This document shows positions 1 to 48,949 of a stretch of 48,949 nt of DNA, piece by piece. Origin of the DNA: Deinococcales bacterium. Its GTDB lineage: Bacteria > Deinococcota > Deinococci > Deinococcales > JAAFIG01. The notes beneath the pieces are model-generated. The model saw only the letters and a list, made by a program, of their open reading frames with translations, made no database searches and was not told the origin of the DNA. Both the position numbers and the translations under genes were made by a program. How positions within the stretch are numbered: the stretch's first letter is position 1; each line of letters begins with the position of its first letter. The stretch is from assembly GCA_013298595.1 (NCBI GenBank), contig JAAFIG010000033.1:1-48949 (forward strand), given 5' to 3'.

Positions 1-351
1 AGGACAACATCTTTGCTTACCTCAATTGAATTCGTATTGGTCGGTACGAGCTTGTGTTTGCCGCAAGATTGCAGGGCATAATCTGCGGATTTGGTTGGGG
101 CTATAAACCACTAGCACCCGACGTAAATTAGAAAAAATAGCAGAAAATAAATATGAATTTTTTGAGTACATTGTAAATGATAAATATTCAACAATGAGTG
201 CCGAAAAATATCGCAATGGACAGTTGTATTGAACCAATACCTGTAGTAACTTACACAACCTTTATCGCGTAATCTTGGTCTTGAGATAATTTGCCTCACG
301 CCTCAGCTTGATTTAGTTTCAATAAACTCGAGATTTTTAAAAGGTAAAGCA
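1..351. other. Left edge, no supported gene
   Basis: No frame here shows a recognisable protein. A frame open from base 2 to the stop at 104-106 could be the last 34 codons of a gene that starts outside the window, but its residues match nothing I know. The reverse-strand frames are low-complexity and have no convincing start. The segment from about 110 to 240 is AT-rich. One CTCGAG lies near 327, just before the ribosome binding site of the next gene. Confidence 0.4.
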
Positions 352-567
352 ATGAATTCATCGCTCAAACAAAAAATAATCGAAGTCTGTGCTGCAAAAA
401 TCCAGCAAAAGGGCAGTAATGTTGGTTTGTCGTTTTATGCTTTTTTCAGTAACAAAAACGATAATCCAGAACTGCTTTTGGAAGCAGCTACATGGTGGAT
501 TTCAACACAAAAGTTTGACCATTTTGAAAAAGCAGCCAAAATTAAGAAAATTGTCGAGGCTATGTAG
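352..567 (+). CDS. Small conserved protein of unknown function (possibly DUF6500-like)
   Basis: The 71-residue product has no signal peptide or membrane segment. It contains a stretch around residues 25-50 with VGLSFYAFF, NKNDNPELL and EAATWWI. That pattern reminds me of a small conserved bacterial family, possibly DUF6500, but I cannot confirm the name. The start is supported by AAAGG about eight bases upstream of the ATG. The gene ends five bases from the stop of a convergent small gene. No CTCGAG occurs inside it. No function can be assigned from sequence. Confidence 0.7.
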   Translation: MNSSLKQKIIEVCAAKIQQKGSNVGLSFYAFFSNKNDNPELLLEAATWWISTQKFDHFEKAAKIKKIVEAM

Positions 568-571
568 TCAA

Positions 572-799
572 TCAATACGTGAGATCTGCTTTAATTGTCC
601 AAGAACCTAACAACTCAATGACTCGCTGCTGATTGTGTGCAGCACGGAATCGGATGTATGGAATTGCACCAAAACGCATGCCTATTTCTTCGACTTCTCC
701 AATTTTTACAGCATCTGTTGAACGGGTTTCACCGCCACCCCGTACCGAGAAGTAGCACCATAAACCAACAAGCGAATCTTTATCCGAAGTATTTGTCAT
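572..799 (-). CDS. Small hypothetical protein divergent from padR
   Basis: This 75-residue frame begins at the ATG at 799. A TATCTT box (807-812) ends seven bases before it, matching the leaderless layout of other genes in the window, and there is no Shine-Dalgarno. The protein is soluble-looking, with a glycine-rich turn (VRGGGET) and a basic C-terminal half, and I do not recognise it. It ends next to the stop of the preceding plus-strand gene, which fits two real convergent genes. A palindrome covers its start and -10 box, and a related one lies in the padR promoter, so the two may share regulation. An unrecognised chance frame remains possible. Confidence 0.45.
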   Translation of the reverse strand: MTNTSDKDSLVGLWCYFSVRGGGETRSTDAVKIGEVEEIGMRFGAIPYIRFRAAHNQQRVIELLGSWTIKADLTY

Positions 800-858
800 C
801 TTGTGCAAGATACGCGATATTTTTTTGAAAAGTTCCCACTATCTTATTTGACAAGATA
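798..858. promoter_or_regulatory. Pair of inverted repeats, candidate PadR operator
   Basis: ATCTTGTGCAAGAT (798-811) is a perfect inverted repeat with 6-base arms. TATCTTATTTGACAAGATA (840-858) has 6-base arms and shares CAAGATA with the first copy (806-812 and 852-858, 46 bases apart). The first covers the start and -10 of the minus-strand small gene and the second covers the -35 of padR. PadR proteins commonly bind dyads in their own promoters, so autoregulation is the natural inference; binding itself is not shown. Confidence 0.5.
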
Positions 859-876
859 CATATTTGGTAATATAGT
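848..876 (+). promoter_or_regulatory. padR promoter, leaderless
   Basis: TTGACA at 848-853 and TATAGT at 871-876 are separated by 17 bases. The -10 box ends six bases before the padR ATG at 883, so transcription should start at or within a base or two of the start codon. No Shine-Dalgarno is present. Confidence 0.6.
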
Positions 877-882
877 CAAGCC

Positions 883-1218
883 ATGAACTCGAGCCAAAAA
901 CAACTCGACCTTGATTTAGTCATTCTCGCCACCCTCGAGCAAGCGCCACTATACGGACTTGAGATCATCAAAGAAGTCCAAGAACGCACCAATGGCGCAT
1001 TGGCATTCAAAGAAGGCAGCCTCTACCCAGCATTGCACCGCTTAGTCAAACTTGGTTGGGTTCTGACCGAATGGCAACCCAGCACCACTGGTGGTGCCCC
1101 GCGAAAATACTATCAACTTTCAGACAGTGGAATTAGTGCATTAAAAAAGAAAAAACTCGAGTGGAACACTATCCGCAATGCCTTAGACAGCTTAATCACA
1201 AGCATGATTGGAGTGTAG
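883..1218 (+). CDS. PadR-family transcriptional regulator
   Basis: The 111-residue protein is a single winged-helix domain of the PadR type. The family motifs are visible in order: LYGLEIIKEV (about 24-33), the recognition-helix region FKEGSLYPALHRL, and the wing PRKYYQLSDSG. The C-terminal helix is short, as in the small PadR subgroup. Such proteins are dimeric repressors that often respond to small hydrophobic or drug-like ligands. The next gene starts three bases after the stop and encodes a membrane protein of the kind often paired with PadR, so the two are probably co-transcribed. The start follows from the -10 box six bases upstream. Confidence 0.92.
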   Translation: MNSSQKQLDLDLVILATLEQAPLYGLEIIKEVQERTNGALAFKEGSLYPALHRLVKLGWVLTEWQPSTTGGAPRKYYQLSDSGISALKKKKLEWNTIRNALDSLITSMIGV

Positions 1219-1220
1219 TT

Positions 1221-1751
1221 ATGTTTAAAACTCGTCCTATAGACCGTTACATCAAACAAGCCACTGCTGGATTACCACGGCTTGAGCGCATAGATACTGC
1301 TGCTGAGTTACGGGTGAATCTAAATTTGCGTATTAAAGAATTGATGCTCGAGGGACACACTCCAGAAGAAGCTGAATTGCTGGTCGTTAAGAATATGGGC
1401 GATGCTGCAAGCACCAATCGAGCATTCATTTTCAATAGGTTTAAGTTGAGCATTGGCTGGCTTTTAGTGTCTGCGAGTATTTTTGGAGGCGCAGGATTTT
1501 GGCTATTCAAAACTTCAAACGACGCTCGATCTGAAAACCTTAACTCTTTAATAGCAGCAAGCAATATCAATGGAGAAATAACGAAAGAAACCTTAGAAAA
1601 CTTAAATAATGAGTTGTATTTTGTAAAAGTCGATGACGGTTTAGGAAACGATTTTGCAATAAATGTAACGGATAAAAGCTATTTTGGACGTAAAATTTAC
1701 TTACTTTCTGAGCAATCGAAGATACAACCTATACTCGTTTATCCACGCTAA
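1221..1751 (+). CDS. PadR-associated membrane protein, permease-prefix-like
   Basis: A 176-residue product follows padR. Residues 1-70 form a charged helical region (IDRYIKQATAGL, ELRVNLNLRIKELMLEGHTPEEAE) resembling the HAAS or permease-prefix domains that occur beside PadR regulators. One membrane segment lies at about 76-96 (IGWLLVSASIFGGAGFWLF), and an unrecognised extracytoplasmic tail of about 80 residues follows. I chose the ATG at 1221 over the longer frame because GGAG lies seven bases upstream and the longer frame runs inside padR. In known pairs the partner acts as a sensor or anti-regulator; that role is only inferred here. Confidence 0.75.
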   Translation: MFKTRPIDRYIKQATAGLPRLERIDTAAELRVNLNLRIKELMLEGHTPEEAELLVVKNMGDAASTNRAFIFNRFKLSIGWLLVSASIFGGAGFWLFKTSNDARSENLNSLIAASNINGEITKETLENLNNELYFVKVDDGLGNDFAINVTDKSYFGRKIYLLSEQSKIQPILVYPR

Positions 1752-1783
1752 AACGTTCCAAGACGTAACATTCACAAACCCTG

Positions 1784-1798
1784 TACACTCGAGGTATG
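1784..1798 (+). promoter_or_regulatory. Fused -10 / CTCGAG / start module of the P450 gene
   Basis: TACACTCGAGGTATG combines a -10 box (TACACT, 1784-1789), the CTCGAG palindrome (1788-1793) and the ATG at 1796. The -10 box ends six bases before the start, which implies a leaderless transcript. GAGG is too close to the ATG to act as a normal ribosome binding site. Three other genes in the window share this arrangement. Confidence 0.5.
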
Positions 1799-3028
1799 CA
1801 AAACGTTCCCGAATACCATCTCGAGATTAACGATCCTGATTTCCTGCGTAACCCATACCCGCTGCTTGAGGATTTACGCAATACCAAACCTATTTTTTGG
1901 GATGCTGCTTGGAAGAAACTCTGGTTTTTACGGTACGAAGATATCTCGAGTTTGTTACGTGATAAGCGTTTAGGTCGGAGCATTTTTCATTTACTCTCGA
2001 GGGATGAGCTTGGTTTTCCTGCACCTGATCCGCGTTTAACAGCGTTTGATGCTTTTCAGAAGAATCATATTTTGGATATGGAACCGCCAAATCATACGCG
2101 AATTCGGGGTTTGGTTCAAAAGGCTTTCACACCGTCACGAGTGGAAAATTTACGGCTTAGGATTCGGCATTTAGTGGCGCAGAGTCTCGAGGTGTTGCCG
2201 AATTCCTTTGATGCAGTTCGTGATTTTGCTGAGCCTCTGCCCGTAACAGTCATTGCTGAACTTTTGGGTGTGCCAGAAACCGACAGGCATTTGTTGCGTC
2301 CGTGGAGTTCAGCAATTGTTAAATTATACGAACTTGGTTACTCAGACATCCAAGCTGAAGCTGGTAATAACGCCGTACTTGAGTTCTCGAGTTATATCAA
2401 AGATTTAGCTACTAAGCGGCGGCAAATGCCTCAGGATGATTTGATTACTGCACTGGTGCAAGTCGAAGAAGCTGGTGAAAAACTCAATGCCGATGAACTT
2501 GTAGCAAACTGCATTTTGTTCTTAAATGCTGGGCATGAAGCAACAGTCAATGGTTTAACTTCGGCATTACTGGCATTGCATCATCAGCCAGAAGCAAAAG
2601 CCGAGTTGATAACTGCGACTCGAGAACCTGATACCGCGAAAATTTGGCAGACCGCCGTGGATGAACTGCTGCGTTTTGATACACCATTACCAATGTTTGA
2701 ACGTTGGGTGCTCGAAGATTTTGAATTCCAAGGTGTGGTATTAAAAAAGGGGATGGAACTAGGGTTTTTCTATGCCAGTGGCAACCGCGACCCTAATAAA
2801 TTTATCAATCCAGACAAGATTTTACTGACTCGAGAACCCAACCAGCACCTGACTTTTGGGCTTGGTACGCATTACTGCATTGGTGCACCATTGGCTCGGC
2901 TTGAAATGGGTGTGGCATTGCGGGCTTTCCTTGAGAAATTCCCAAATTACAGCATTCCAGAGCAACTGCTCGAGTACAGTGGTTTTGTGATTCGGGGATT
3001 AAAAAAGCTAGAAGTGATTAGCTCCTAG
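1796..3028 (+). CDS. Cytochrome P450 monooxygenase
   Basis: This is a 410-residue soluble bacterial P450 of normal length. The I-helix motif AGHEAT is at 245-250, the ExxR pair is E290-R293, and the haem loop FGLGTHYC ends in the axial Cys361. The residue after the I-helix acid, usually Thr, is Ala249 with Thr250 behind it; some bacterial P450s such as EryF lack the Thr and rely on the substrate for proton delivery. The substrate is unknown. No ferredoxin or reductase gene is adjacent, so electrons must come from proteins encoded elsewhere. The gene follows the PadR pair by 44 bases but has its own promoter-like box. Confidence 0.95.
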   Translation: MQNVPEYHLEINDPDFLRNPYPLLEDLRNTKPIFWDAAWKKLWFLRYEDISSLLRDKRLGRSIFHLLSRDELGFPAPDPRLTAFDAFQKNHILDMEPPNHTRIRGLVQKAFTPSRVENLRLRIRHLVAQSLEVLPNSFDAVRDFAEPLPVTVIAELLGVPETDRHLLRPWSSAIVKLYELGYSDIQAEAGNNAVLEFSSYIKDLATKRRQMPQDDLITALVQVEEAGEKLNADELVANCILFLNAGHEATVNGLTSALLALHHQPEAKAELITATREPDTAKIWQTAVDELLRFDTPLPMFERWVLEDFEFQGVVLKKGMELGFFYASGNRDPNKFINPDKILLTREPNQHLTFGLGTHYCIGAPLARLEMGVALRAFLEKFPNYSIPEQLLEYSGFVIRGLKKLEVISS

Positions 3029-3031
3029 CTT
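3001..3031 (-). terminator. Terminator of the SodC/CHRD-like gene
   Basis: Arms AAGCTAG (3005-3011) and CTAGCTT (3025-3031) form a 7-bp stem. Read on the minus strand, the stem is followed by a run of six T. It lies just downstream of the minus-strand secreted protein gene and overlaps the last codons of the P450. Confidence 0.6.
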
Positions 3032-3051
3032 GGCTGGTTCGTAGGCGTGAT

Positions 3052-3531
3052 TTAGTTTTCAGAAGTGAGTGTGGTTGCGTTACCACAAGCAATATAATCT
3101 CCGATTGGACGAGGTTTGTTGGAGTGAATGTTAAAGTACAACTTGCTTTTGGGTAAATTTGGTAGTTCAGTGGCAGAAATAAGCGTGTAATTTACAGCGT
3201 TACCTTTTGCATCAGCAACAAGATTTTTAAAGCTAATGGCATCTTCGCCATTTTGGGCTTCGCAAGTTGGGTCAGCAACTTGGTTACTAAAATGCAAGTG
3301 ATTAGCGTAAACACCAGAATTTGGTTGCAATCCCGAAATTCGCACATAAACTTCGTGATCGCCACTTGGCAATGTGACAAAGACCATGTTGGCTTTGACA
3401 TTTGGATTGTCCTTGTTTCCAAGCGCTTCGGCGTACATGACTTTACTTTGATTACCATGTGCAATGGCTACCATACTGACCGAGAGGGCTGTGATGAGTG
3501 TGACTCCGACAAGAGCAAAAACTTTTTTCAT
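3052..3531 (-). CDS. Secreted SodC/CHRD-like protein
   Basis: The 159-residue protein has a clear signal peptide (residues 1-24, MKKVFALVGV to VAIAHG) and should be exported. The mature part recalls the Cu/Zn superoxide dismutase fold. ANHLHF provides a His-x-His pair, and Cys in DPTCEAQNG plus Cys in YIACGNAT match the positions of the SodC disulfide. The usual zinc loop and full copper ligand set are not visible; only one further His (FNIHSN) is obvious. It is therefore better called SodC- or CHRD-like than a proven dismutase. GGAGGTAAC ends just before the ATG. A stem with a T run lies downstream. No CTCGAG occurs in this gene. Confidence 0.7.
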   Translation of the reverse strand: MKKVFALVGVTLITALSVSMVAIAHGNQSKVMYAEALGNKDNPNVKANMVFVTLPSGDHEVYVRISGLQPNSGVYANHLHFSNQVADPTCEAQNGEDAISFKNLVADAKGNAVNYTLISATELPNLPKSKLYFNIHSNKPRPIGDYIACGNATTLTSEN

Positions 3532-3615
3532 TGTTACCTCCGATCAGGTATACGTATGAAAACACTGTCTTGGATGCGGTAATTATGACTTTTTAGTGAC
3601 AGAATAAACACCAAT

Positions 3616-4632
3616 TCATGACTCGAGATAAATGACTTGTCCTGTTTTGCTGGATTGATAACTGGCGAGTGCCACTTGCAAACCTGCAAATCCGTCTTGC
3701 CAAGTAATTGGCACAGGTTTTTGCTTGCTAACAGCTTCGAGAAAAGTATTCAGCATGGCTCGAGTGGCATCTGCACCATAACCCAACCAATTGGTGGCTC
3801 GAGTGGTGTTTTTGGAGTACAGGTTAACTCTGTTGGCAAAGCCGTCTATTTCAAAAGCAGCATTTTCCAGATAAATCTCGAGTTTTAGGTGTCCCCAGCG
3901 TGGGTAAACTCCGACTGGGCGACTCCAAGAAGAATCTGAACTGGTAATGACTCGAGTTTCGTTGGTACCAAGTGTCATAGTGATAAATCCTGCGCTATCA
4001 ATGTCTAATTCTGGGTAGAACGGGTTGCTGATTTCGGCTTGTACACTCGAGACTTCTAAATTTAACAACCATCGGTATAAATCTGTTAGATGCACAGTAT
4101 GATCCATAATCGCGCCACCACCAGCCAGTTGTTTATTGGCAAACCATGCTTGGCGATACATTGGGTTTTCAGCATGGTTAATTCCAACAATTCCCAAAAC
4201 TTTACCAAGTTTGGGTTGCTCAAGTTTTTGTTTAAGGGTCATTAAATTGGGGTCAAATCGCATGGGGTACGCGGTCATAAATTGGACGCTAGCTTGTTCA
4301 CATACCTCGCGCATTTTTATGGCATCTTCAAGGGTAGTAGCAATTGGTTTTTCGCAAAGGATATGTGCTCCCGCTCGAGCTGCCAGTGTGACCAGTGGTA
4401 GATGCAAAGCCGTTTCAGAACATATAATCACAGCGTCAAGTCCTTGATCTATTAAGGCACGATGGGTTGCAAAATGCTTTAGACCTGATGTTTCAACAAA
4501 TTTCTTGGCAGCTTCGGAATTGTTTTGTGAAAATCCAACAACCTCGAGATTAGCAGTGGTTCTTAAAATTTCCGCAAAACCATCAGCGTGGACATGAGCT
4601 GTACTGAGAATACCAATTCGTAAAGGTTTCAT
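3616..4632 (-). CDS. Gfo/Idh/MocA-family oxidoreductase (first copy)
   Basis: The 338-residue protein has an N-terminal NAD(P)-binding domain and a C-terminal substrate domain. CEKPIATTL (about 93-101) carries the catalytic-Lys EKP motif. The dinucleotide loop is atypical, RIGILSTAHVHADGF in place of GxGxxG, which suggests an altered cofactor site or a subfamily feature. GGGAIMDHTVHLTDL supplies the conserved Asp and His region. Its ATG overlaps the TGA of the upstream homologue by four bases, so the two are translated together. Being divergent from a sugar ABC transporter, they probably oxidise or epimerise the imported sugar derivative; the substrate is not deducible. Confidence 0.9.
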   Translation of the reverse strand: MKPLRIGILSTAHVHADGFAEILRTTANLEVVGFSQNNSEAAKKFVETSGLKHFATHRALIDQGLDAVIICSETALHLPLVTLAARAGAHILCEKPIATTLEDAIKMREVCEQASVQFMTAYPMRFDPNLMTLKQKLEQPKLGKVLGIVGINHAENPMYRQAWFANKQLAGGGAIMDHTVHLTDLYRWLLNLEVSSVQAEISNPFYPELDIDSAGFITMTLGTNETRVITSSDSSWSRPVGVYPRWGHLKLEIYLENAAFEIDGFANRVNLYSKNTTRATNWLGYGADATRAMLNTFLEAVSKQKPVPITWQDGFAGLQVALASYQSSKTGQVIYLES

Positions 4633-5624
4633 AGGTTGACCACCAATCCTGTTTGCAGGGATTCTCGAGCGGCTAAAGCTAACTTCAGGGCTTTCATGGC
4701 ATCGTTAGCAGTAACAGCAAATGGTGTATCCGTCTCGAGTGCATTTTTAACATGTGCGATTTGCGAATGGTACGGGTCGGCACCTGCGCTCAGGTCTGGC
4801 ATTCCCACGCCTGCACTTGCTTCAGATGCTGTCGCCAAGAAACTCATCACAGCGGGGTTATCATCCGAACGCCACTCGAGTACGCCTGCTGAACCTGCAA
4901 TATCAAATCCTGTGCGAAAAATGCCTGCTGGATATGCCCAAGCTCCCTCGAGATGGGCAATAACCCCAGACTCAAAACGTAAGGTTACAATGACCACATC
5001 GCTTTTGATGTCGGCATTGATGGCTCGAGTGCTGCGGGCAAAAACTCGAGTCACCGTTCCAGCCTTGGCATTTTGGGCGTACCATAAGGCTGTATCAAAA
5101 TCGTGAATCATTAAATCTAAAACCACGCCACCTGAACGCTTTTCATCAAGAAACCAATTATCCGTAAGTTGAGCGGGCAATTGCCCAGCTCGTTTGAAAC
5201 GCATGGTTCCTAAACTGCCAATTTCGCCTCGAGCAATGCTGGCGGCAGCCGTTTGATATTGCGGAAAAAACCGTACTACATGGGCAATAAAAAGTCGGAC
5301 ATTAGCTGCTTGGCAGCTATCAAGCATCGCTTGAGCATCTTTAATGGTTAAAGCAATTGGTTTTTCGCAGACCACATGTTTACCTGCTGTGGCAGCAGCT
5401 ATGGTCAACTCGAGATGTTGCGGTGTTGGCACACAAATATCTACAACATCCACTCGTTCAAGCATTTCCTCGCGTGTACACACAGCACAATTGTATTGCG
5501 CTGCAAGGGTTGCCGCATGGTCTATTTTGTTATCGAGTACAGCTGTAATTGTCGCTCCAGCAGCCTGCCAAGCTGCTAAATGCACTGTTCCCATCAGCCC
5601 TAAGCCGATCACACCTACTCGCAT
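4629..5624 (-). CDS. Gfo/Idh/MocA-family oxidoreductase (second copy)
   Basis: The 331-residue protein starts with a standard Rossmann loop, VGVIGLGLMG, and has the EKP motif in VVCEKPIALT. The substrate domain contains GGVVLDLMIHDFDTALWY, with the usual Asp-His pair. The start at 5624 is set by GGAGG seven bases upstream; the open frame continues a further 318 bases, but that extension has no family similarity and runs into the divergent gene. It is the first gene of a two-gene operon with the homologue at 3616. About 90 bases separate it from the divergent solute-binding protein, so both directions are likely controlled from one spacer. Confidence 0.93.
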   Translation of the reverse strand: MRVGVIGLGLMGTVHLAAWQAAGATITAVLDNKIDHAATLAAQYNCAVCTREEMLERVDVVDICVPTPQHLELTIAAATAGKHVVCEKPIALTIKDAQAMLDSCQAANVRLFIAHVVRFFPQYQTAAASIARGEIGSLGTMRFKRAGQLPAQLTDNWFLDEKRSGGVVLDLMIHDFDTALWYAQNAKAGTVTRVFARSTRAINADIKSDVVIVTLRFESGVIAHLEGAWAYPAGIFRTGFDIAGSAGVLEWRSDDNPAVMSFLATASEASAGVGMPDLSAGADPYHSQIAHVKNALETDTPFAVTANDAMKALKLALAARESLQTGLVVNL

Positions 5625-5715
5625 GCAAACCTCCGAAGATTTTCTTAGTATACCGATTTGCGTTCTTGTCAGGCAGCGCAGTAGACTTTGTGCAACACAA
5701 TTCATGGAGGCTGTT

Positions 5716-6975: not shown

Positions 6976-6992
6976 TTGTACTGAGTTGACTG

Positions 6993-7023
6993 CCCTCCCC
7001 CGTGATTTTGGGGGAGGGTTTTT
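6993..7023 (+). terminator. Intra-operon terminator after the binding-protein gene
   Basis: CCCTCCCCC (6993-7001) and GGGGGAGGG (7010-7018) form a 9-bp G/C-rich stem with an 8-base loop, followed by TTTTTC. It sits between the binding protein and the first permease. Leaky termination here would give more binding protein than membrane subunits, a common stoichiometry control in such operons. Confidence 0.85.
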
Positions 7024-7036
7024 CTAAAAGGATTCA

Positions 7037-8775: not shown

Positions 8776-8779
8776 ATTC

Positions 8780-16483: not shown

Positions 16484-16485
16484 TC

Positions 16486-22415: not shown

Positions 22416-22811
22416 GGCTCACCCCTGGAAAGCAAACAGAAAAACTTTTAAAGCAAAAAGCTTTACCAAGAAACAAGAGACTGCCAATCGCGCATAACTC
22501 GAGCAAGAAAAAAAGAATTCACTGTCTGGGAGTCCTGAAACGTAATAGTCATGATTGAACGTATTTTGTTCATATAATAAATTATAGCATATATTTAGCT
22601 AGAAACATTAGACAGCTTTTGCATCCAAAGGTTGCTTCACTAAACTCGAGCAACTTACTTGAGTATTTGTGAAGTCATACCATACCAACCTTTGACACCA
22701 ATGAACTGACCGACAGTATTCAGCAAATAATGCCGCGAACACAGCGCAGACATGACCATTTTCACAATCAGAGCATTTGGCAAAACTTGAGCCAAGCGCT
22801 ACAATACACCC
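22416..22811. other. Divergent spacer with the antitoxin promoter
   Basis: No supported gene lies in these 396 bases; a reverse frame at 22608-22835 is Cys-rich chance sequence overlapping the antitoxin start. An AT-rich tract lies near 22560-22600. TTGGCA (22776-22781) and TACAAT (22800-22805), 18 bases apart, form a promoter whose -10 box ends six bases before the antitoxin ATG. Two CTCGAG copies are present. Confidence 0.5.
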
Positions 22812-23114
22812 ATGACTGTAACAGCAAAAATACAAACCTCAGACACAGCCATCAACCCTCAATTTTTGATTGATGCCAATGGCAAACCAACCGCAGTCAT
22901 GCTCACCATAGAAACATGGGAACAAATCGCATCAATGCTACAAAGAAACCTTTCACTCGAGACACAAGTTGTACTAAAACACATCCCAATTGTGAATGAA
23001 CCCGTACCTACTCGAGTCAGCAAACGCTTCAAAGAACTGGCTCAAGGTATTCAAGTTAAAACGCTCACAATTCAAGAAGCCAAAGCCGAACTTAAAAGGT
23101 TACGCAGTAAATGA
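22812..23114 (+). CDS. Phd/YefM-like antitoxin
   Basis: The 100-residue protein has the antitoxin-type core GKPTAVMLTIETWEQIASML (about 32-51), close to the Phd/YefM pattern in which an N-terminal domain binds DNA. The charged C-terminal helix (RFKELAQGIQVKTLTIQEAK) would wrap the toxin. It overlaps the toxin start by four bases (ATGA), the usual gene order. The leaderless promoter is at 22776-22805. Typical antitoxins bind their own promoter, but I see no clear dyad at the start. Confidence 0.75.
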   Translation: MTVTAKIQTSDTAINPQFLIDANGKPTAVMLTIETWEQIASMLQRNLSLETQVVLKHIPIVNEPVPTRVSKRFKELAQGIQVKTLTIQEAKAELKRLRSK

Positions 23115-23406
23115 TTACACCTGAACGAACACCTTTTGTACTTGTACTAGAAAAACGTGCCCTAAAAGCATTCAGAACACTTAGCACCCAAGATGAAGCT
23201 CGAGTTTGGGATGCACTACTCCGACTTTGTGCCGAAGGCATTGGCGACATTGGACAATTACAAAACGAACCTACTGGCTCATTACGATTAAGAGTCGGAG
23301 ATATGCGAATTTTCCTTTTTCTCGAGGGGCATAGACTAACGCGATTGTAGAATTTGTGCAATTTAGACAAAGTTCACCATATCAAACTCGAGAAAGTATC
23401 AAGTAA
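23111..23406 (+). pseudogene. RelE/ParE-type toxin, C-terminus apparently frameshifted
   Basis: The annotated frame stops at 23350 after 79 residues. It has the RelE/ParE fold signature ending with GSLRLRVGDMRIFLFLEGHRL, then stops at RLTRL. The family normally continues with a strand and an HRxxxY tail. Another phase from 23344 reads IVEFVQFRQSSPYQTRESIK and stops at 23404-23406, which looks like the missing strand and tail. One lost base near 23343-23345 would restore a toxin of about 99 residues. The gene may be inactivated, or the read may contain an error. The first 79 residues could still be made, coupled to the antitoxin. Confidence 0.7.
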
Positions 23407-23550
23407 GCTCAAACATTTGCATTAAGGATTATCACGAAAAAGTAGCCTTAAACTGCACAATCACCATCAAACCTTTTAACAAGTATTAGTGTGATTCACA
23501 TTACATATTATATTTACTTTTCAGATGTTAAAATTGTCACAGAGGGCAAA

Positions 23551-24051
23551 ATGGTCAAAATAAAAAAGCGCAGTGGCATACTAATACTCGCAATATTGCC
23601 ATTACTATCATCATTTACACTAGGAAAAACCGCAACTACATGTTCCAAAAATGATGTTTGGACAGGCTGGCTTACGCGTCCAAACATCCTGAATATGAGC
23701 ACATTTCCAGAGTTTCCAATAAGGTGGGACACAAAAGAAGCCTTAGAAATGAAACGAAAAGCTGTAGAAAACTGGAATACCAGCAGCCTAAAAAGGTTTA
23801 ACGCACAAATAGAATCTTATAATCAGAAAACTGAAAAACAACGTTGTATCTTAGAAAACTTACGCTCTTCACAAAGTATTGGACTAACAAAATATAAAAA
23901 ATTGTATCAAGGATACATTCTGTTTAGTAATAAATTCTATCCGGAACTAACGAAAAGTTATAAAAAGGGGTTTGCAAGATATAAAGAATTCGATACTTGG
24001 TATAAGAAGGAATCAGCAAAACAACCAGGCATGCGGTCAGGAGGTCTTTAA
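23551..24051 (+). CDS. Secreted protein of unknown function
   Basis: The 166-residue product has a basic start and a hydrophobic signal (MVKIKKRSGILILAILPLLS, continuing to SFTLG). The mature part is Lys/Tyr/Asn-rich and helical (ALEMKRKAVENWNTSSLKRF, YKKLYQGY) with two Cys. GAGGG lies six bases before the ATG at 23551, so I do not use the longer frame from 23491. Its base use is more AT-rich than its neighbours and it contains no CTCGAG. The stop overlaps the next start (TAATG). I do not recognise the family. Confidence 0.7.
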   Translation: MVKIKKRSGILILAILPLLSSFTLGKTATTCSKNDVWTGWLTRPNILNMSTFPEFPIRWDTKEALEMKRKAVENWNTSSLKRFNAQIESYNQKTEKQRCILENLRSSQSIGLTKYKKLYQGYILFSNKFYPELTKSYKKGFARYKEFDTWYKKESAKQPGMRSGGL

Positions 24052-24488
24052 TGAGTCAAAACACAACTTCACCAACCATTTTTAAAGAGGACTTTTCCTT
24101 ATCTTTCCTAGTTTCTCAGTGTTTTGAGATAGTTCTGAAAGTCATTTTGCCCGCCACTATACTTTCAGTTGCTATTGCTTTAATTTTAGTTTTTATTACA
24201 AAACCCAAAAAAGAATATACTGTAGATACCTTAAAGTTTTTACTATCTTTTACGATAATTGGCGTAACTGTGGGTATTTTATCAGGCGCATCAAGAGACG
24301 CTAGTGTTGGTAATCTAATTACTGCAACAACAACAACTGTTGCAGCAGTATTAGCTTACATTTTTTCAGATAAAATCCAAGAGGGGTTTCGCAAAAACCT
24401 TCCCATTTCAATGATTGGATTTACAGTTGCTATCTTATTTGGAGCGTTTTTTGGTGCGCTCCTAAGAACTGGGATGACAGACAAGTAA
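24051..24488 (+). CDS. Four-helix membrane protein of unknown function
   Basis: The 145-residue protein has four predicted helices at about 25-50, 60-82, 88-110 and 118-140, with short loops. AGGAGG six bases before the ATG gives a strong ribosome binding site, and the start overlaps the stop of the secreted-protein gene, so the two are made together. No CTCGAG is present. The pair may be a recently acquired cassette; its function is unknown. It ends four bases before the convergent dnaJ. Confidence 0.7.
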   Translation: MSQNTTSPTIFKEDFSLSFLVSQCFEIVLKVILPATILSVAIALILVFITKPKKEYTVDTLKFLLSFTIIGVTVGILSGASRDASVGNLITATTTTVAAVLAYIFSDKIQEGFRKNLPISMIGFTVAILFGAFFGALLRTGMTDK

Positions 24489-24491
24489 TTA

Positions 24492-25364
24492 TTAAACCAG
24501 CTTTTCCCAAATCTCGAGTTCTACTTCACTTGGGTTTTGTGGCACAACTATCCGCATCTCGAGTAACGCATCTCCCCTACTACCATCTTTTTTGTACCAA
24601 CCTTGCCCGCGTAAACGCAGTACCCGCCCTGCTTGGCTACGCGGTGGAATACTGATCTCTCCTCTACCCTCGAGGGTCATGGCTTCGAGTTTTCCACCTA
24701 GTACAGCTATTGCGGCTGGCACATCAAGTATCACTCGCACATCGTCATGCTCGAGTTTAAAAATAGGATCTTTCTCGAGTTTAATGGTCAGCAGCACATT
24801 TGCGCCACCCGGAGCTTGTCCGCGTAATCGCAATTTTTGGTTATCTCGAGCGCCTTTAGGTACGCTAACCTCGAGTTGTTTATCGCCGATGTTGATGTTG
24901 CGGGTCGTGCCTCGGAAAGCTTCGGCAAGACTTATTGCCAGTGTGCCTTCAACATCGGGGGCAGGGCGTTGGAAACCTTGTCCAAAAATATCTTGTGGAT
25001 TGCCACCGAAACCGCCACCGCCTCGAGAACCACCAAAGCCACCACCGAAGAGTGTTTGGAAGAAGTCCGAGAAATCTCCTGCTCCGCCACCTTGTCCGCC
25101 TGGGTACGAGTAGCCACCACTTCCAGGTGGCACTCGACCATTGGCTGCATCTGCGCCGTAAGTATCGTAGATTTTACGTTTTTCGACATCACCTAGAACT
25201 TCGTACGCTTCGTTGATTTCTTTGAATTTGGCTTCTGCACTGGCATCACCCATGTTTTTATCTGGATGGTATTGCTTGGCTAGTTTGCGATACGCACTTT
25301 TGATTTCATCATCAGAGGAGCTTTTTGCAACCCCAAGGGTTTTATAGTAATCCTTGTAATTCAT
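24492..25364 (-). CDS. dnaJ: DnaJ-type co-chaperone without zinc finger
   Basis: The 290-residue protein has a J domain (1-70) with HPD at 33-35, a Gly/Phe-rich linker (about 85-135), and two C-terminal beta domains (SLAEAFRGTTRNI onward). The Cys-rich zinc domain of full DnaJ is missing, as in CbpA and in the DnaJ of Thermus and Deinococcus. It stimulates DnaK ATPase and delivers clients. It is the last gene of dnaK-grpE-dnaJ. GAGGAG lies upstream of the ATG, within a CTCGAGGAG sequence. Confidence 0.96.
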   Translation of the reverse strand: MNYKDYYKTLGVAKSSSDDEIKSAYRKLAKQYHPDKNMGDASAEAKFKEINEAYEVLGDVEKRKIYDTYGADAANGRVPPGSGGYSYPGGQGGGAGDFSDFFQTLFGGGFGGSRGGGGFGGNPQDIFGQGFQRPAPDVEGTLAISLAEAFRGTTRNINIGDKQLEVSVPKGARDNQKLRLRGQAPGGANVLLTIKLEKDPIFKLEHDDVRVILDVPAAIAVLGGKLEAMTLEGRGEISIPPRSQAGRVLRLRGQGWYKKDGSRGDALLEMRIVVPQNPSEVELEIWEKLV

Positions 25365-26129: not shown

Positions 26130-28019
26130 CTAGCCAGCAGGTTTGAAATCTGCATCAATCACGTCGTCATCAGCTTTGCTCTCGGCATTTGGGGCTGCTT
26201 CGCCACCCGCTTGGTTTTGACCAGCCGCTTGCATCAGGTTACGCAAAGCTTCCTCAAGGTCTTTTTGCAGACTTTCAATTTTACTATCCTCGGTAAGATC
26301 GTTTTGGATAGCAAGTTTGGCTTCTTCAGCAAGGCTCGAGACTTTATCTTTGAGGTCTTGCGGAGCATTTTCGCTTTCGGTGACTTGTTTTTCAGCATTA
26401 ATTCGCAATGCGTCTAAGCCGTTGCGTTTTTCAATTTTTTCACGGCGAGCCTTGTCGGTGTCTGCGTTTAATTCTGCTTCACGCACCATACGATCAATTT
26501 CGTCTTTGCCTAAAGTGGTGGTGTTTTCAACACGGATATTGGCTTCTTTACCAGTGGATTTTTCTTTAGCTGATACTCGCAAAATACCGTTGGCATCCAT
26601 ATCAAAAGTCACTTCGATTTGTGGAATACCAGCTGGCATTGGTGGGATTCCCTCGAGCTTAAAGCGCCCAAGGCTTTTATTATCGTTTGCCATGCTGCGT
26701 TCGCCTTGCAGGATATTAATTTCTACACCTGGTTGATTATTCTCGGCAGTGGTGTAAATTTCGGTTTTCTTAGCTGGTACAGCGGTATTACGGCTAATCA
26801 TTGGGGCAACCAAGCCACCTTTGACTTCAACACCAAGGGTTAATGGTGTGACATCCACCAGAACAATATCGCCTACAGAGTCATCGCCCGAAAGAATAGC
26901 AGCTTGCACAGCAGCACCAAGGGCAACGGCTTCATCTGGGTTAACACTTTCGTTTGGTGTTTTATTGAGTAATTTTTCGACCAGCGCTTTAACGGCTGGG
27001 ATACGGGTACTACCACCAACTAAAATCACTTCGTCAATTTGACCAGCACTTAATTTTGCATCCTCGAGGGCTTGCAGAACTGGTTTACGGCAACGCTCGA
27101 ACAAATCGCCAACCAAGCCTTCAAATTGTGCTCGGGTCAGTTTTTTCTCGAGGTGCAACGGGGTACGGGTTTCTGGGTCGAAAGTGATAAACGGCAAGCT
27201 AATGCTGGTTTCTAACGCACTAGAAAGCTCGATTTTAGCTTTTTCGGAAGCTTCGATTAAGCGTTGCAAGGCTTGTGGGTCTTTACGAAGATCAAATTTG
27301 TTTTCTTCTTCAAAACCTTTGGCTAACCAACTGACAATGCGCTGGTCAATATCGGCACCACCAAGGTGGGTATCGCCGTTAGTGGATTTAACTTCAAAAA
27401 CACCATCGCCAATCTCGAGCACAGTCACATCGAAAGTACCGCCACCCAAGTCGAAAACCAGGATTTTTTCGTTACCTTTTTTATCTAAACCGTATGAAAG
27501 TGCCGCAGCTGTTGGTTCGTTAATGATACGCAACACATTTAAACCAGCAATTTTACCTGCTGCAGCTGTGGCTTCGCGCTGAGTATTATCAAAGTACGCT
27601 GGAACAGTAATGACCACATCAGAAACTTTGTAACCAAGTTTACTCGAGGCATCATCGACCATTTTACGCAACACCATGGCACTGATTTCTTCTGGTGCTT
27701 TTAAACCATCCGAAGTTTCGATTCGCACACTACCATTTGGTCCCTCGAGCACTTTGAACGGTGCCCGACCTGCTTCTTCACGAACTTCATCCCAGCGGCG
27801 ACCAATAAAGCGTTTGACTTCAAAGAACGTATTACCTGGATTCAGAGGGGCTTGACGCTTAGCAACATTACCAACTAGCTTATCTGCACCTTTAAAAGCC
27901 ACAACACTTGGGGTTGTCCGAGTGCCTTCGCTATTGACAATCACATCGGGTTTGCCACCTTCAACGATGCTAATGACACTGTTTGTCGTACCTAAATCAA
28001 TTCCAACGGCTTTTGCCAT
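26130..28019 (-). CDS. dnaK: Chaperone DnaK (Hsp70)
   Basis: The 629-residue protein is a complete Hsp70. The N-terminal ATPase begins AKAVGIDLGTTNSVISI, with phosphate loops VFDLGGGTFDVTVLEIG and VGGSTRIPAV; the substrate domain and the acidic C-terminus (DDDVIDADF) are intact. I chose the ATG at 28019, which has GGAGAGG eight bases upstream; the longer frame is leader sequence. Copies of CTCGAG are sparser in the C-terminal half. A sigma70-type promoter and a palindrome lie in the leader, described separately. Confidence 0.98.
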   Translation of the reverse strand: MAKAVGIDLGTTNSVISIVEGGKPDVIVNSEGTRTTPSVVAFKGADKLVGNVAKRQAPLNPGNTFFEVKRFIGRRWDEVREEAGRAPFKVLEGPNGSVRIETSDGLKAPEEISAMVLRKMVDDASSKLGYKVSDVVITVPAYFDNTQREATAAAGKIAGLNVLRIINEPTAAALSYGLDKKGNEKILVFDLGGGTFDVTVLEIGDGVFEVKSTNGDTHLGGADIDQRIVSWLAKGFEEENKFDLRKDPQALQRLIEASEKAKIELSSALETSISLPFITFDPETRTPLHLEKKLTRAQFEGLVGDLFERCRKPVLQALEDAKLSAGQIDEVILVGGSTRIPAVKALVEKLLNKTPNESVNPDEAVALGAAVQAAILSGDDSVGDIVLVDVTPLTLGVEVKGGLVAPMISRNTAVPAKKTEIYTTAENNQPGVEINILQGERSMANDNKSLGRFKLEGIPPMPAGIPQIEVTFDMDANGILRVSAKEKSTGKEANIRVENTTTLGKDEIDRMVREAELNADTDKARREKIEKRNGLDALRINAEKQVTESENAPQDLKDKVSSLAEEAKLAIQNDLTEDSKIESLQKDLEEALRNLMQAAGQNQAGGEAAPNAESKADDDVIDADFKPAG

Positions 28020-28042
28020 AACAATACCTCTCCTCATGGAAA

Positions 28043-28067
28043 TACTCGAGAATGATTTTCTCGAGTA
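28043..28067 (-). promoter_or_regulatory. Perfect palindrome in the dnaK leader
   Basis: TACTCGAGAA (28043-28052) and TTCTCGAGTA (28058-28067) are perfect 10-base inverted repeats around TGATT. Each arm contains one CTCGAG. The element ends 23 bases upstream of the dnaK start and inside the predicted 5' untranslated region, just before the ribosome binding site. It could be a repressor operator or an RNA hairpin that affects translation. It is not the CIRCE sequence. Confidence 0.65.
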
Positions 28068-28111
28068 CCAATTTATTGGCGCAAGGCGCTCAAGCGTCCT
28101 GCAATAAGGGA

Positions 28112-28140
28112 AGTGTAGCAATTAGAGTCTAAATTGTCAA
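28112..28140 (-). promoter_or_regulatory. dnaK promoter
   Basis: On the minus strand, TTGACA (28140-28135) and TACACT (28117-28112) are 17 bases apart, a near-consensus sigma70-type promoter. Transcription should start near 28105, giving a leader of about 85 bases that contains the palindrome at 28043-28067. Confidence 0.7.
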
Positions 28141-36942: not shown

Positions 36943-36945
36943 ACA

Positions 36946-39040: not shown

Positions 39041-39112
39041 CACCAAGCACAAACATCGAGTAAACTGCATCTCGAGCATCGGCATTTACGCCCCCTCGCC
39101 TCAGGAGACGAT

Positions 39113-40698: not shown

Positions 40699-40702
40699 GG
40701 GC

Positions 40703-42766: not shown

Positions 42767-42825
42767 TGTTTAATCATAACTTGAAAAACTTGTGCACAAG
42801 CCAAAATGCCAACCAAAAAGCAAAC

Positions 42826-45096: not shown

Positions 45097-45139
45097 ACGT
45101 GGAGAATAGCACTTTTACCGCCTCGAGAATAGAAAAAGG

Positions 45140-46336
45140 TTACGAACGCCAACCACTGCGTCTAGCAGAACGTATATTCGAGATACTTTGCAAATGATTT
45201 GCCAATTGTGCAAAAGAATTGAGGTTATGAATACTGAGAAAATCATCAGTATACGGTAATGCCGCCCGTAATCCTCGAGTTTGTGGCTGAAAACCCACTG
45301 TACCCAACAAGGGATTAAGCCAAATTAAACGATGACAGGTTTTTTGTAAGCGCTCCATCGCTGCCCCTAAAACACTGGGTTCACCTTGATCCCAACCATC
45401 AGAAATAATAATTACCACTGCGCCACGCCCAAGGACTTGCTTAGCATAAACCCGATTGAATTTTTCGATACTCGAGCCAATCCTCGTACCACCAGACCAA
45501 TCATTGACCAATTGCCCAACTTCGAGCAAAGCAGAATCCACATTGCGCCGCTCGAGTTGTTTTGTAATGCGACTCAGCCGAGTGCCAAAGGCAAAAGTTT
45601 CAATATTACGCCGCTCGAGTTTTTGCGTGACTGTGTGCATAAAGTGTAGCAACAAACGGGCGTATCGTTCCATACTGCCAGAAACATCTGCCAGCACCAC
45701 CAATGGACGAGGTTTGGTTTTTGGCGAACGCATCTCGAGATGAATCCATTCGCCCCCAAAACGCATGGCAGTATGAAACGATTTACGATAATCCAAACGC
45801 TGCCCTTTATTTGAGGCAGCAAACCGCCGAGTGCGCCTCTCACCTACGCGCCACACAAAGCGCTTGAGTGCCGCTTTAGCCGCCTCGAGTTCGGCACCAG
45901 ACATCTGATCAAAGCGCTTAGCTTTCAGGGTTTCATCAGCGCTATAGGTTAAAGCTCGATCAGTCAATGGCTGTGGCAACACATCCGACTGTACTTGCGA
46001 AGACTTGGCATTGCTTGAGGTGTCACGCACCTCAGCAGGACGAGGTTTTTGTTGCTGATTAGCTAAACTCAATTGATTGAGTAATTCGTCAGGAACACCA
46101 CCTAAACCCAACTCGAGCCAAAATTGCCGAAACACCTTTTCAAACTTAGCAATATCCTCGCGGTTTGAAACCAAACAAGCTCGAGCCGCATCAGCAAACA
46201 CTCGAGGTTCGTGAAATGGCAGATGTGTTAAGCCAATTGCAAAAACTTCGGTTTGGCTTGGTGTGACTTTGACACCAGCCTTGCGGAGTTCGCGGCTAAA
46301 ACGGACAGCGTGACTAAGTAAATGACTTGGCTGCAC
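45140..46336 (-). CDS. CoxE-like VWA-domain protein
   Basis: The 398-residue protein has a helical N-terminal region (about 1-120) and a C-terminal VWA domain with a complete metal-ion-dependent adhesion site: DVSGSM, the Thr in GGTRIGSS, and the Asp in ISDGWD. CoxE-type proteins work with MoxR-type AAA ATPases to insert cofactors or activate enzymes; no MoxR gene is present in the window. It starts with GTG, preceded by GAGG at six bases. The downstream partner is the TPR membrane protein. Confidence 0.92.
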   Translation of the reverse strand: MQPSHLLSHAVRFSRELRKAGVKVTPSQTEVFAIGLTHLPFHEPRVFADAARACLVSNREDIAKFEKVFRQFWLELGLGGVPDELLNQLSLANQQQKPRPAEVRDTSSNAKSSQVQSDVLPQPLTDRALTYSADETLKAKRFDQMSGAELEAAKAALKRFVWRVGERRTRRFAASNKGQRLDYRKSFHTAMRFGGEWIHLEMRSPKTKPRPLVVLADVSGSMERYARLLLHFMHTVTQKLERRNIETFAFGTRLSRITKQLERRNVDSALLEVGQLVNDWSGGTRIGSSIEKFNRVYAKQVLGRGAVVIIISDGWDQGEPSVLGAAMERLQKTCHRLIWLNPLLGTVGFQPQTRGLRAALPYTDDFLSIHNLNSFAQLANHLQSISNIRSARRSGWRS

Positions 46337-46379
46337 GACATTCCTCGTTGATGATCCCCGTCCAGTTAGATAAATAAGA

Positions 46380-46400
46380 GGGAGACCACAAGGGTCTCCC
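46380..46400. repeat. Short palindromic repeat, GACC-ACAAG-GGTC type
   Basis: GGGAGACC (46380-46387) and GGTCTCCC (46393-46400) flank ACAAG. The same core recurs near 47391 with GGGCGACC and GGGTCGCGCCC. It may also end transcription of the FKBP gene on the minus strand, where a TCTTATTTAT sequence follows. Repeats of this shape, often written GGGCGACCACAAGGGTCGCC, are common in many uncultured bacterial genomes. Confidence 0.7.
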
Positions 46401-46414
46401 CTACCAAAATGGCT

Positions 46415-46741
46415 TTATTCAACACCCAAAAGTTCAACTTCAAAAACCAGCGTGGCATTTGGCGGAATCACACCACCAGCACCTCGAGCACCATATCCAA
46501 GGTGCGGCGGAATGGTCAGTTTGCGTTTCCCACCAACTTTCATGCCTTGCACGCCTTCATCCCAGCCTCGAATAACGTGTCCTGCTCCGAGGGGAAATTG
46601 AAAAACTTCGCCACGTGGCACACTCGAGTCAAAGATGCGCCCATCTGGGAACATACCAGTGTAATGCACACTGACGATTTGACCTGCGGTTGCGGTTGCG
46701 CCTGTACCGATAACGGTGTCCTCTGAAATCATTTGTTCCAT
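46415..46741 (-). CDS. FKBP-type peptidyl-prolyl isomerase
   Basis: The 108-residue protein is a single cytosolic FKBP domain that accelerates cis-trans isomerisation at prolines. [38 protein letters not shown] and [20 protein letters not shown] are consensus motifs with the active-site aromatic and Asp residues. The start is the ATG at 46741 where TAGACT ends seven bases upstream; the longer frame overlaps the divergent GNAT gene. Confidence 0.96.
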
Positions 46742-46769
46742 GACCTCGAGTCTACCGTAAAATGAGCGG
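46739..46769. promoter_or_regulatory. Compact divergent leaderless promoter pair with CTCGAG
   Basis: Only 28 bases separate the FKBP and GNAT starts. The FKBP -10 (TAGACT, 46754-46749 on the minus strand) overlaps a CTCGAG and is followed by the ATG at 46741. The GNAT -10 (TAAAAT, 46758-46763) ends six bases before its ATG at 46770. Both -35 regions must lie inside the opposite coding sequence. Confidence 0.55.
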
Positions 46770-47267
46770 ATGAATCTCAAGATTGAATATGCTGCTTCTG
46801 CCGAGGATGGTTTAGCCGCCGTTGAAGTACTCAAAAGTGTGTCGTTATGGCTCGAGGAACAAGATCAACCCTTATGGAAACCAGCCCAATTCTCGCAAGT
46901 ATGGCTGCAACAACATCTCGATAAAAAAGAATTGGTGATTGCTCGAGACAGAAAAATGATTATTGCTACCATGCTGTTAATGCTCGAGGATCAAGCATTC
47001 TGGGCAGATTATCCGCTTGGTGAAGCTGTTTTTGTTCATAAACTAGCAGTTGCTAGAGCTTATGCTGGACAAGGTATTGCCACCCAACTCCTCGAGTTCG
47101 CAGCTCGAGAAGCTAAGCGTGTAGGTCGGCGTTTTGTACGTTTGGATGCGGCTCAGCGTTCCGCTTTGACTGACTTTTACGAAGCAAATGGTTTTGCACG
47201 TGTTGATCAAAAAGTTGTTAGTGAATTGACCTACTGGCGTTACCAACGCGATCTTGCCTACGGTTAA
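46770..47267 (+). CDS. GNAT-family N-acetyltransferase
   Basis: The 165-residue protein has the GNAT acetyl-CoA site [20 protein letters not shown] (about 90-109), followed by [20 protein letters not shown]. The acceptor is unknown; the size and the FYEANGF motif are shared with RimI- and small-molecule-type acetyltransferases. It is divergent from the FKBP gene. A block of repeats follows its stop. Confidence 0.92.
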
Positions 47268-47286
47268 GCTAAACAAAAACCGTAGC

Positions 47287-47342
47287 GGCGAGGCTTCTTG
47301 ATTCTAAACATGCACCTGTCGGGCAGAATCGCTTGCCTCGCC
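47287..47342. repeat. Imperfect long hairpin repeat
   Basis: GGCGAGGC (47287-47294) pairs with GCCTCGCC (47335-47342), and GATTCT (47300-47305) pairs with AGAATC (47325-47330), leaving internal loops. It lies 20 bases after the GNAT stop and could terminate that gene, but its composition is more like the palindromic repeat next to it. Confidence 0.65.
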
Positions 47343-47376
47343 CAACTAGCCATCATTCTCGAGGAGATTTTAAGAA

Positions 47377-47462
47377 TGTTGGTTAACACAGGGCGACCAC
47401 AAGGGTCGCGCCCTACGAAACGTAAAAACGTTGGTTAGCACCAAGCGACCATATGGGTTCTT
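47377..47462. repeat. Two degenerate direct copies of a palindromic repeat
   Basis: GTTGGTTAACACAGGGCGACC is followed, 53 bases on, by GTTGGTTAGCACCAAGCGACC, and both continue with a diverged ACAAGGGTC/ATATGGGTT end. The first copy holds the full GACCACAAGGGTC palindrome seen at 46380. No gene is present in 47268-47482. Confidence 0.65.
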
Positions 47463-47482
47463 GACCACAACCCAAACTCACT

Positions 47483-48136
47483 TTAATTGTTATCTAAGCT
47501 GGCAAGCCCTTCACGGATTGCGTACAAAGCAGCTTGTGTACGGTTATTGAGTTGCAATTTGGCAAAGATTTCCGATAAACGGTTTCGGACGGTTTTCTCA
47601 GAAATATTGAGTTTCAGCGCAATTTCTTGGTTGCTCGAGCCTTGTGCCAGTAAACGCAAAATAGCAGCTTCGCGTTCGGTCAAGTCGCCTCGGTTTTCGT
47701 CAGGTAAGCTTTCTTTTTTAACTCGGAAATCCTCGAGCACATTTTTTGCCATTTCAGGGTCGAGTAATGTGTCGCCTTCGTGGACTTGACGAATTGCGCT
47801 GATGAGTTCGCTCGAGTCTACATCTTTAAGTAAGTACCCTCTGGCACCAGCTTTGACGGCTTCAAAAACATAGCTATCTTGGCGATACATGGTTAATATG
47901 ATCACATTACCATTTGGGTTTATCTCGAGGATGCTTTGTGTGGCACGTACTCCATCAAGTTCTGGCATTTGAATATCCATCAGAATCACATCGGGTTTAG
48001 TGTCGGCGGCATAGCGCACCGCTTCGCGTCCAGTTTGAGCTTCGCCTATGACGCGTAAGTCTGGTTCAGTCTCGAGTAAACTTTTGAGACCTTGGCGGAA
48101 GAGGGCATGGTCATCGGCTAATAAGATGCGAATCAT
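47483..48136 (-). CDS. NarL/LuxR-type response regulator
   Basis: The 217-residue protein has a receiver domain (1-120; LLADDH acid pocket, phosphorylated Asp in VILMDIQMP, Thr in VIILTM, Lys in YLLKD) and a C-terminal LuxR-type HTH ([20 protein letters not shown] and [20 protein letters not shown]). TACAAT ends six bases before the ATG at 48136. No histidine kinase is adjacent, so its partner is unknown. Confidence 0.96.
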
Positions 48137-48197
48137 GGTGCTATTGTAGACTATTTTTAGATTGTGAATATATTCTCGAATACATAAATTGAAAAAC

Positions 48198-48216
48198 CCC
48201 CTCAAAACTCGAGGGG
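48198..48216 (-). terminator. pnp terminator
   Basis: CCCCTC (48198-48203) and GAGGGG (48211-48216) form a 6-bp G/C stem around a loop. On the minus strand the stem is followed by G and TTTTTC. A CTCGAG overlaps the stem. It lies 25 bases past the pnp stop. Confidence 0.8.
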
Positions 48217-48240
48217 ATTAGTCCATCTTAAAAATAGAAT

Positions 48241-48949
48241 TTAGCGCTTGCCACCACGATCACGGAAACCATCACCGCGTCCGCCGCCACGATCAGGACG
48301 CGGACCACTTGGACGGGCAGCTCGAGCTGGCACTTTACCCTCGAGTTCGGGGCGACTGAGATCAATTTTGCCACGGTCATCTATGTTAACCACTTTGACT
48401 TGTAACTTATCGCCAACACTAAGCGCATCTTCGACTTTGGCAATACGTTCCTCGGAAATTTGGCTGATATGCAACATGCCATCCAAACCAGGAATGATGT
48501 TGATAAACGCACCAAATTCCATGATTTTGACAACCGTACCGTTATAAACACTGCCAACCTTGGCTTCTTCGGTACTGCCTTGGACTCGAGACAACACTTC
48601 TTGGGCAGCGGCGGCATCTGAGGAGTAAATACGCACCGTACCATCTTGTTCGATGGTAATTTCGGCTCCTAATGCCTCGAGTTCACGGATATTCTTGCCA
48701 CCTGGTCCAATGATCGCACCAATCTTATCTGGTGGAATCTTGGTGGTCAAAATGCGTGGTGCATATTGGCTCATCTCACCTCGTGGGGCTTTAATGACAG
48801 CATCCATCTTATCGAGAATATGGATACGGGCTTGTTTGGCTTGGTCAAGCGCTTCACGCATTAAGGCTGGCGTTATACCCTTGATCTTCATATCCATTTG
48901 CAATGCTGTAATGCCATCTCGAGTTCCGCAAACTTTGAAATCCATATCG
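48241..48949 (-). CDS. pnp: Polyribonucleotide nucleotidyltransferase, C-terminal part
   Basis: The last 236 or so residues of PNPase are present; the N-terminal part lies beyond the right edge. Visible are the end of the second catalytic domain ([20 protein letters not shown]), the KH domain ([17 protein letters not shown]), the S1 domain ([20 protein letters not shown]) and a basic, Gly/Arg-rich tail. PNPase degrades RNA from the 3' end with phosphate. The reading frame continues to the window edge. Confidence 0.97.

Follow-up and report, generated by a model that had tools for sequence, protein, structure and literature searches.

The hexamer CTCGAG is a highly iterated palindrome (HIP)-class element in a family of uncultured Deinococcales: directional pressure on the DNA itself has raised this one short palindrome to about 6 copies per kb and keeps it there. 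We describe it from a window of 48,949 bases (the whole stretch analyzed, positions 1 to 48,949 of contig JAAFIG010000033.1, assembly GCA_013298595.1) and from the corresponding genome (G000). Across the window (1..48949, no strand) 288 copies were counted, 31 times the 9.2 that composition predicts; an earlier reading of the letters alone (the sequence-only reading) had claimed roughly 290 copies and a thirtyfold excess. In first-order Markov simulations of the window CTCGAG averaged 5.3 copies, with a maximum of 12, and in a ranking of hexamers within the window it scored top, with nothing comparable once overlapping hexamers were set aside. The genome contains 27,159 copies in 4,582,226 bases (68 contigs), about 1 per 165 bases or 5,930 per Mb, and three relatives in the same family contain 26,600 to 28,200 copies each. 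Total copy counts are whole-genome values, and the other statistics for G000 come from sampled regions. A sample of 544 kb across 16 contigs holds 3,265 copies, 30 times the number expected from composition, and the runner-up palindrome reaches only 2.3 times. Because the usual Markov expectation is inflated by CTCGAG itself, the motif was masked before an order-2 model was trained; this model predicts 46 copies in the sample, which corresponds to an approximately 71-fold excess, and the excess in intergenic DNA alone is 51-fold. The enrichment is thus confirmed and is greater than first claimed: the genome-wide count lies far from a Markov expectation, and no rival hexamer is enriched to an equal degree.

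The motif is distributed without regard to genes. Its density in the G000 sample is 5.99 per kb in coding DNA and 6.08 per kb in intergenic DNA, and both strands and all three codon phases are used. Within the window, sites in open reading frames (ORFs) of at least 120 amino acids are divided among the phases as 122, 78, and 61 and between plus- and minus-strand genes as 85 and 176, and 27 sites lie outside or partly outside such ORFs. The sequence-only reading had placed the copies on both coding strands, in three phases, and in spacers, as these counts bear out. The information content of the flanking bases does not exceed 0.025 bit, which leaves the hexamer alone as the unit, and as CTCGAG is its own reverse complement, it has no orientation.

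Within genes of G000, CTCGAG writes 69% of Leu-Glu dipeptides, whereas the Leu and Glu codons used elsewhere predict 1.6%, and the motif accounts for over 50% of CTC and GAG codons. Leu-Glu is also the most overrepresented dipeptide of the proteome (2.3 times, versus 0.98 for the reverse dipeptide, Glu-Leu). The log odds ratio for the synonymous choice of CTCGAG is about 4.9, a rough measure of scaled strength and not a fitted selection coefficient. The equal coding and intergenic densities together with the Leu-Glu bias therefore indicate a pressure on DNA that is strong enough to change proteins, in line with the earlier proposal that selection or biased conversion acts at the DNA level. The accompanying claim that the motif brings in codons otherwise avoided holds in part: the codons disfavored outside the motif are CTC, at 8.7% of Leu, and GAG, at 19% of Glu, whereas CGA supplies 16% of Arg and TCG supplies 12% of Ser, without strong avoidance of either. 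The Leu-Glu bias and the share of CTC and GAG codons are relevant to studies of codon usage and protein evolution in these lineages, and the Leu-Glu codon test offers a composition-robust route to similar signals elsewhere. An origin of the pattern in codon usage, composition, or assembly artifact is highly improbable. GC-rich relatives use the codons CTC and GAG often, which may explain much of the mild excess in Deinococcus-like genomes (ln odds ratio of about 0.55), but such an origin agrees neither with the equal density and 51-fold excess in intergenic DNA nor with the observed versus expected writing of Leu-Glu, the recurrence of the motif in metagenome-assembled genomes (MAGs) of separate accession series, and the lack of any comparable hexamer; for family f1 and genus g11 it is already refuted.

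The sites are spaced more evenly than chance would have them. The variance-to-mean ratio of counts per 250 bp is 0.64 in the window and 0.79 in G000, compared with 0.97 to 1.48 for seven control hexamers of similar abundance. With the protein sequence held fixed, Leu-Glu in G000 is written as CTCGAG about 80% of the time when the nearest other site is 75 to 200 bp away and 24% of the time when it is less than 15 bp away (z = 12.6), and the same effect is seen in G003 (z = 5.7). At distances below about 30 bp, sites exclude one another. A density of about 6 per kb is held at GC contents of 46, 48, 52, and 59%. These features would suit a nucleoid, chromosome-organizing, or replication protein with CTCGAG as its binding site and a requirement for one such site per 100 to 200 bp, with selection keeping the density: spacing is underdispersed, the exclusion below about 30 bp resembles a footprint, coding and spacer densities are equal, and the set point is independent of GC. 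We nevertheless consider this explanation unlikely, as no candidate protein was found, though no systematic search was made, and as densities of 0.3 to 9 per kb among relatives (whose lifestyles are similar in name only) would be odd for an essential architecture.

Within G000, CTCGAG-free stretches longer than 1.2 kb are mostly AT rich, and CTCGAG density rises with gene GC content from 0.17 per kb at 32 to 35% GC (few genes) to 6.8 per kb at 48% GC or above. We read the AT-rich, CTCGAG-poor DNA as recent acquisitions that arrived without the motif and gain sites over time, so that gaps in the motif may serve to flag recently acquired DNA. One such island on G000 contig C66 (L061:5589-9147) is 3.6 kb long, free of CTCGAG, and 33% GC, and it carries a methyltransferase-like gene with a neighbor that is DUF262-like by eye.

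It is the density of CTCGAG, and not the position of its sites, that is maintained; individual sites turn over almost freely. Although G001 has CTCGAG at 54% of the G000 sites, versus 18% for hexamers generally, this difference is mostly explained by protein conservation and high equilibrium use, and we did not use it as evidence of position-specific maintenance. At shared Leu-Glu positions, the use of CTCGAG in one species barely predicts its use in the other (pooled odds ratio, 2.1; P = 0.045; 1.06 for G002). One-base neighbors of CTCGAG are near expectation, except for transitions, which are 1.8 to 2.3 times expectation in all three position classes, a halo of the kind that ordinary decay leaves. 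Copies of CTCGAG itself exceed all one-base neighbors combined by about 2:1. Generation of CTCGAG by T-to-C mismatch correction was rejected, as TTCGAG and CTTGAG are enriched and not depleted.

A cognate methyltransferase was the first candidate driver tested because one was found for each cyanobacterial HIP by Elhai (2015; PMC4390886). Under that model, a CTCGAG methyltransferase acting with methyl-directed mismatch repair would ratchet sequences toward the motif, or methylated CTCGAG would mark strands for repair. A search of five Pfam families detected no methyltransferase orthologue common to the high-CTCGAG genomes G000 to G003 and G012, although G000 has several methyltransferases of unassigned specificity, and an N6-methyladenine enzyme that diverges in sequence from genome to genome is possible. 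The D12 methyltransferases occur in all five of these genomes but belong to unrelated groups. An orphan 5-methylcytosine (m5C) methyltransferase on G000 contig C15 is present in G001 and G012 and was not found in G002 or G003. A plasmid relative 58% identical to this orphan adjoins an endonuclease of the HpaII (CCGG) type, and CCGG is depleted tenfold in G000 (0.10 times expectation in the sample); the orphan, the best m5C candidate, is therefore probably specific for CCGG and not for CTCGAG. Nor does the decay halo contain an m5C hot spot among the one-base neighbors, and Halorubrum BOL3-1 methylates CTCGAG and yet has only 560 sites (PMC8112702). A methylation-linked origin thus appears unlikely in spite of the cyanobacterial precedent, and the link to methylation suggested by the sequence-only reading gained no support.

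Restriction-modification (R-M) systems were considered as well. An R-M system of the XhoI type was rejected, as the high-CTCGAG genomes of families f1 and f2 contain no endonuclease of the XhoI family, PF04555. On G000 contig C34 (L062:8650-10496), a methyltransferase gene is followed by a NotI-family endonuclease gene (PF12183; 3e-6), probably an intact R-M pair, but it has no orthologue shared among the high genomes. On contig C11 (L059:8312-10736), a gamma-type adenine methyltransferase is preceded by a 307-amino-acid protein without a Pfam match, perhaps an unrecognized restriction endonuclease. Many other palindromes are almost lacking from the G000 sample: GGCC is at 0.01 times expectation, TTCGAA occurs once versus 155 expected, and GGGCCC, CCGCGG, and AGGCCT do not occur at all, a pattern that points to heavy restriction pressure. 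GAGCTC, in which the halves of CTCGAG are reversed, is missing from the window and occurs 15 times in G000; it is nearly absent from every extreme genome (15, 4, 9, 9, 25, and 2 copies) but is present in hundreds to thousands of copies elsewhere in the phylum. The sample contains no copy of CTCGAGCTCGAG either.

Enrichment of CTCGAG is graded across the Deinococcota. The relatives are uncultured Deinococcales (G001, JAAFJQ01; G002, JANYHH01; G003, JANXTZ01; G012, JANYFS01); G004, of family f2, is JAJZIR01. Extreme densities of 6 to 9 per kb occur in family f1 (GC content, 46 to 59%) and in genus g11 of family f2. Lower but still marked values are found in genus g8 of family f2 (3.2 per kb; 69% of Leu-Glu), in genera g13, g23, and g24 (about 2.6 per kb; 56% of Leu-Glu versus 16% expected), and in G104 of genus g29 (2.5 per kb; 57% of Leu-Glu). 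Family f4 is intermediate, and most Deinococcus-like genomes of family f3 are near the codon expectation. In the sequence sampled, no enrichment was seen in G004 (f2), G041 and G052 (both f3), g25, or g7, which we read from size and GC content as Thermus-like, as we read g13 as Meiothermus-like. Mild avoidance of CTCGAG at Leu-Glu was observed in genus g7 (0.20 versus 0.35 from codon usage; P = 3e-7) and in G004 (0.09 versus 0.15; P = 6e-3). The incomplete g11 genome G016 (loci L167, L202, and L203) has 9.2 copies per kb over a sample of 14 kb, in which CTCGAG writes 64 of the 75 Leu-Glu dipeptides, and is possibly denser in the motif than the family of the window. Viral contigs were scanned for three closely spaced CTCGAG copies; among the matches listed, the densest were short GC-rich fragments, and none had the signature of family f1. 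Among open-license papers, we found no match for a CTCGAG motif in Deinococcota.

This distribution may be related to competence. ComEC, the sole competence gene tested, is present in 79 of 85 well-completed genomes of the phylum and in all high-CTCGAG genomes that are at least 90% complete; it was found in G000 to G003, G008, G012, and G104. It is missing from G004 (97% complete) and G041 (96% complete), both of which are small and lack CTCGAG enrichment. The other sampled genomes without ComEC score at most 0.56 (G050 on very little sequence), whereas the scores of genera with ComEC run from −0.76 to 4.9. A rank test of ComEC against enrichment gave P = 0.04; since it carries no phylogenetic correction and several genus values were rounded, the link is suggestive only.

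Our first choice of driver, held tentatively, is sequence-biased DNA exchange, with the motif favored during uptake or recombination in natural transformation. The competence machinery, or a process acting on DNA that has just entered, would favor incoming DNA that bears CTCGAG, and homologous recombination would then swap motif-less alleles for CTCGAG alleles, so that sites would build up at every place where coding and spacer sequence allows. A second site close by would add little to the acceptance of a fragment and would not be kept, and recently acquired foreign DNA would hold few sites. DNA uptake was one of the options listed by the sequence-only reading, and it gains some support from the underdispersion, the exclusion of near neighbors, the scarcity of sites in islands, the near independence of CTCGAG use at shared Leu-Glu positions, and the joint loss with ComEC. 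We place this driver first because of two parallels. In Haemophilus, biased uptake by itself is reported to suffice for sites that are numerous, fairly evenly spaced, and rare in recently arrived DNA (PMC7811141), and in Campylobacter jejuni a short palindrome, RAATTY, is required for uptake and is read when methylated by CtsM (PMC10046745). The uptake signal sequences (USS) of Haemophilus and the DNA uptake sequences (DUS) of Neisseria resemble CTCGAG in being abundant, relatively even, and scarce in newly acquired DNA, with a competence gene present.

Several observations weigh against this choice. USS and DUS are 9 to 12 nucleotides long, nonpalindromic, and, at about 1 per kb, about sixfold rarer, whereas CTCGAG is a bare 6-bp palindrome; USS are underrepresented in coding DNA, whereas CTCGAG is equally dense in coding and intergenic DNA. 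No receptor for CTCGAG was identified. G002 shows only a weak effect of spacing on Leu-Glu and G008 shows the opposite effect, and both G052 and g25 carry ComEC and show no enrichment. The ComEC correlation itself comes from few genomes, was sought after the fact, and is uncorrected for phylogeny.

Deinococcota are often polyploid and proficient in recombination, and an intracellular recombination or repair signal not tied to uptake (Chi-like or a gene conversion hot spot between genome copies) would likewise yield free turnover and limits on density through biased conversion. We regard this as quite unlikely, however, since Chi is asymmetric and orientation dependent, whereas CTCGAG is palindromic and far denser, and since the joint loss with ComEC would be a coincidence. 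A broader proposal that builds on biased exchange, possible but a little more doubtful than that driver itself, is that CTCGAG may be an ancestral palindromic self-recognition signal of the Deinococcota that is read in transformation or in recombination between genome copies. In one family it would have been driven to 1 per 165 bp, strongly enough to dictate which codons and dipeptides are used, and it would have been lost where competence was lost (G004 and G041) or is nonspecific (the Thermus-like genus).

Three features of the window remain to be placed. A stretch without a long ORF (22498..23392), probably spacer DNA, holds seven sites, all outside ORFs of at least 120 amino acids (22498, 22645, 22956, 23011, 23199, 23321, and 23387), and is directly followed by the longest CTCGAG-free stretch of the window (23393..24512), whose bordering sites are 1,126 bp apart. 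A gene for DnaK lies on the minus strand (26130..28121); it has relatives of 69 to 94% identity in Deinococcales MAGs and was used with its neighbors to compare CTCGAG among orthologues by codon alignments. The Deinococcus-like lineage assigned by the sequence-only reading agrees with these relatives.

HIP1 was first described in 1995. Like HIP1 (GCGATCGC) and the alternate cyanobacterial HIPs (PMC4390886), CTCGAG is a single palindrome found throughout the genome, inside and outside coding DNA, at a frequency well beyond chance, and like them it varies between related genomes and is lost in some. The description as HIP1-like therefore stands, with DNA-level pressure acting on both strands, in all phases, and between genes. 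The survey by Elhai (2015) lists HIP1, GGCGCC, rCCGGy, GCsGC, GGGATCCC, and TCGATCGA, and CTCGAG appears nowhere in that paper, which fits the claim of a new sequence; all of its cases are cyanobacterial, and it still calls the function of HIP1 a mystery (PMC4390886). CTCGAG differs from those HIPs in sequence and phylum (Deinococcales versus cyanobacteria), in density (5,930 versus 500 to 2,500 per Mb, with 1,000 to 2,000 per Mb as the HIP criterion), in GC content (67% versus a HIP criterion of at least 75%), in that no cognate methyltransferase was found in the five Pfam families, and in its measurable change of dipeptide content. The RAATTY motif of Campylobacter is likewise a short palindrome, but deciding uptake is a feature of RAATTY, which has the methyltransferase CtsM, whereas no CTCGAG methyltransferase was found here. 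R-M systems of the XhoI/PaeR7I type recognize the very same sequence, but their sites are normally avoided, whereas CTCGAG is enriched in genomes from which PF04555 is absent. Chi is an asymmetric motif that acts by orientation, and CTCGAG, having none, does not belong with it. In contrast to the HIPs known in cyanobacteria, the signal on DNA is strong enough here to place Leu-Glu at the top of the overrepresented dipeptides of the proteome. CTCGAG thus provides a denser, independent HIP-like case, which varies in strength from genus to genus and has been lost naturally in places, and it opens a comparative question with testable correlates in competence, methylation, and ploidy.

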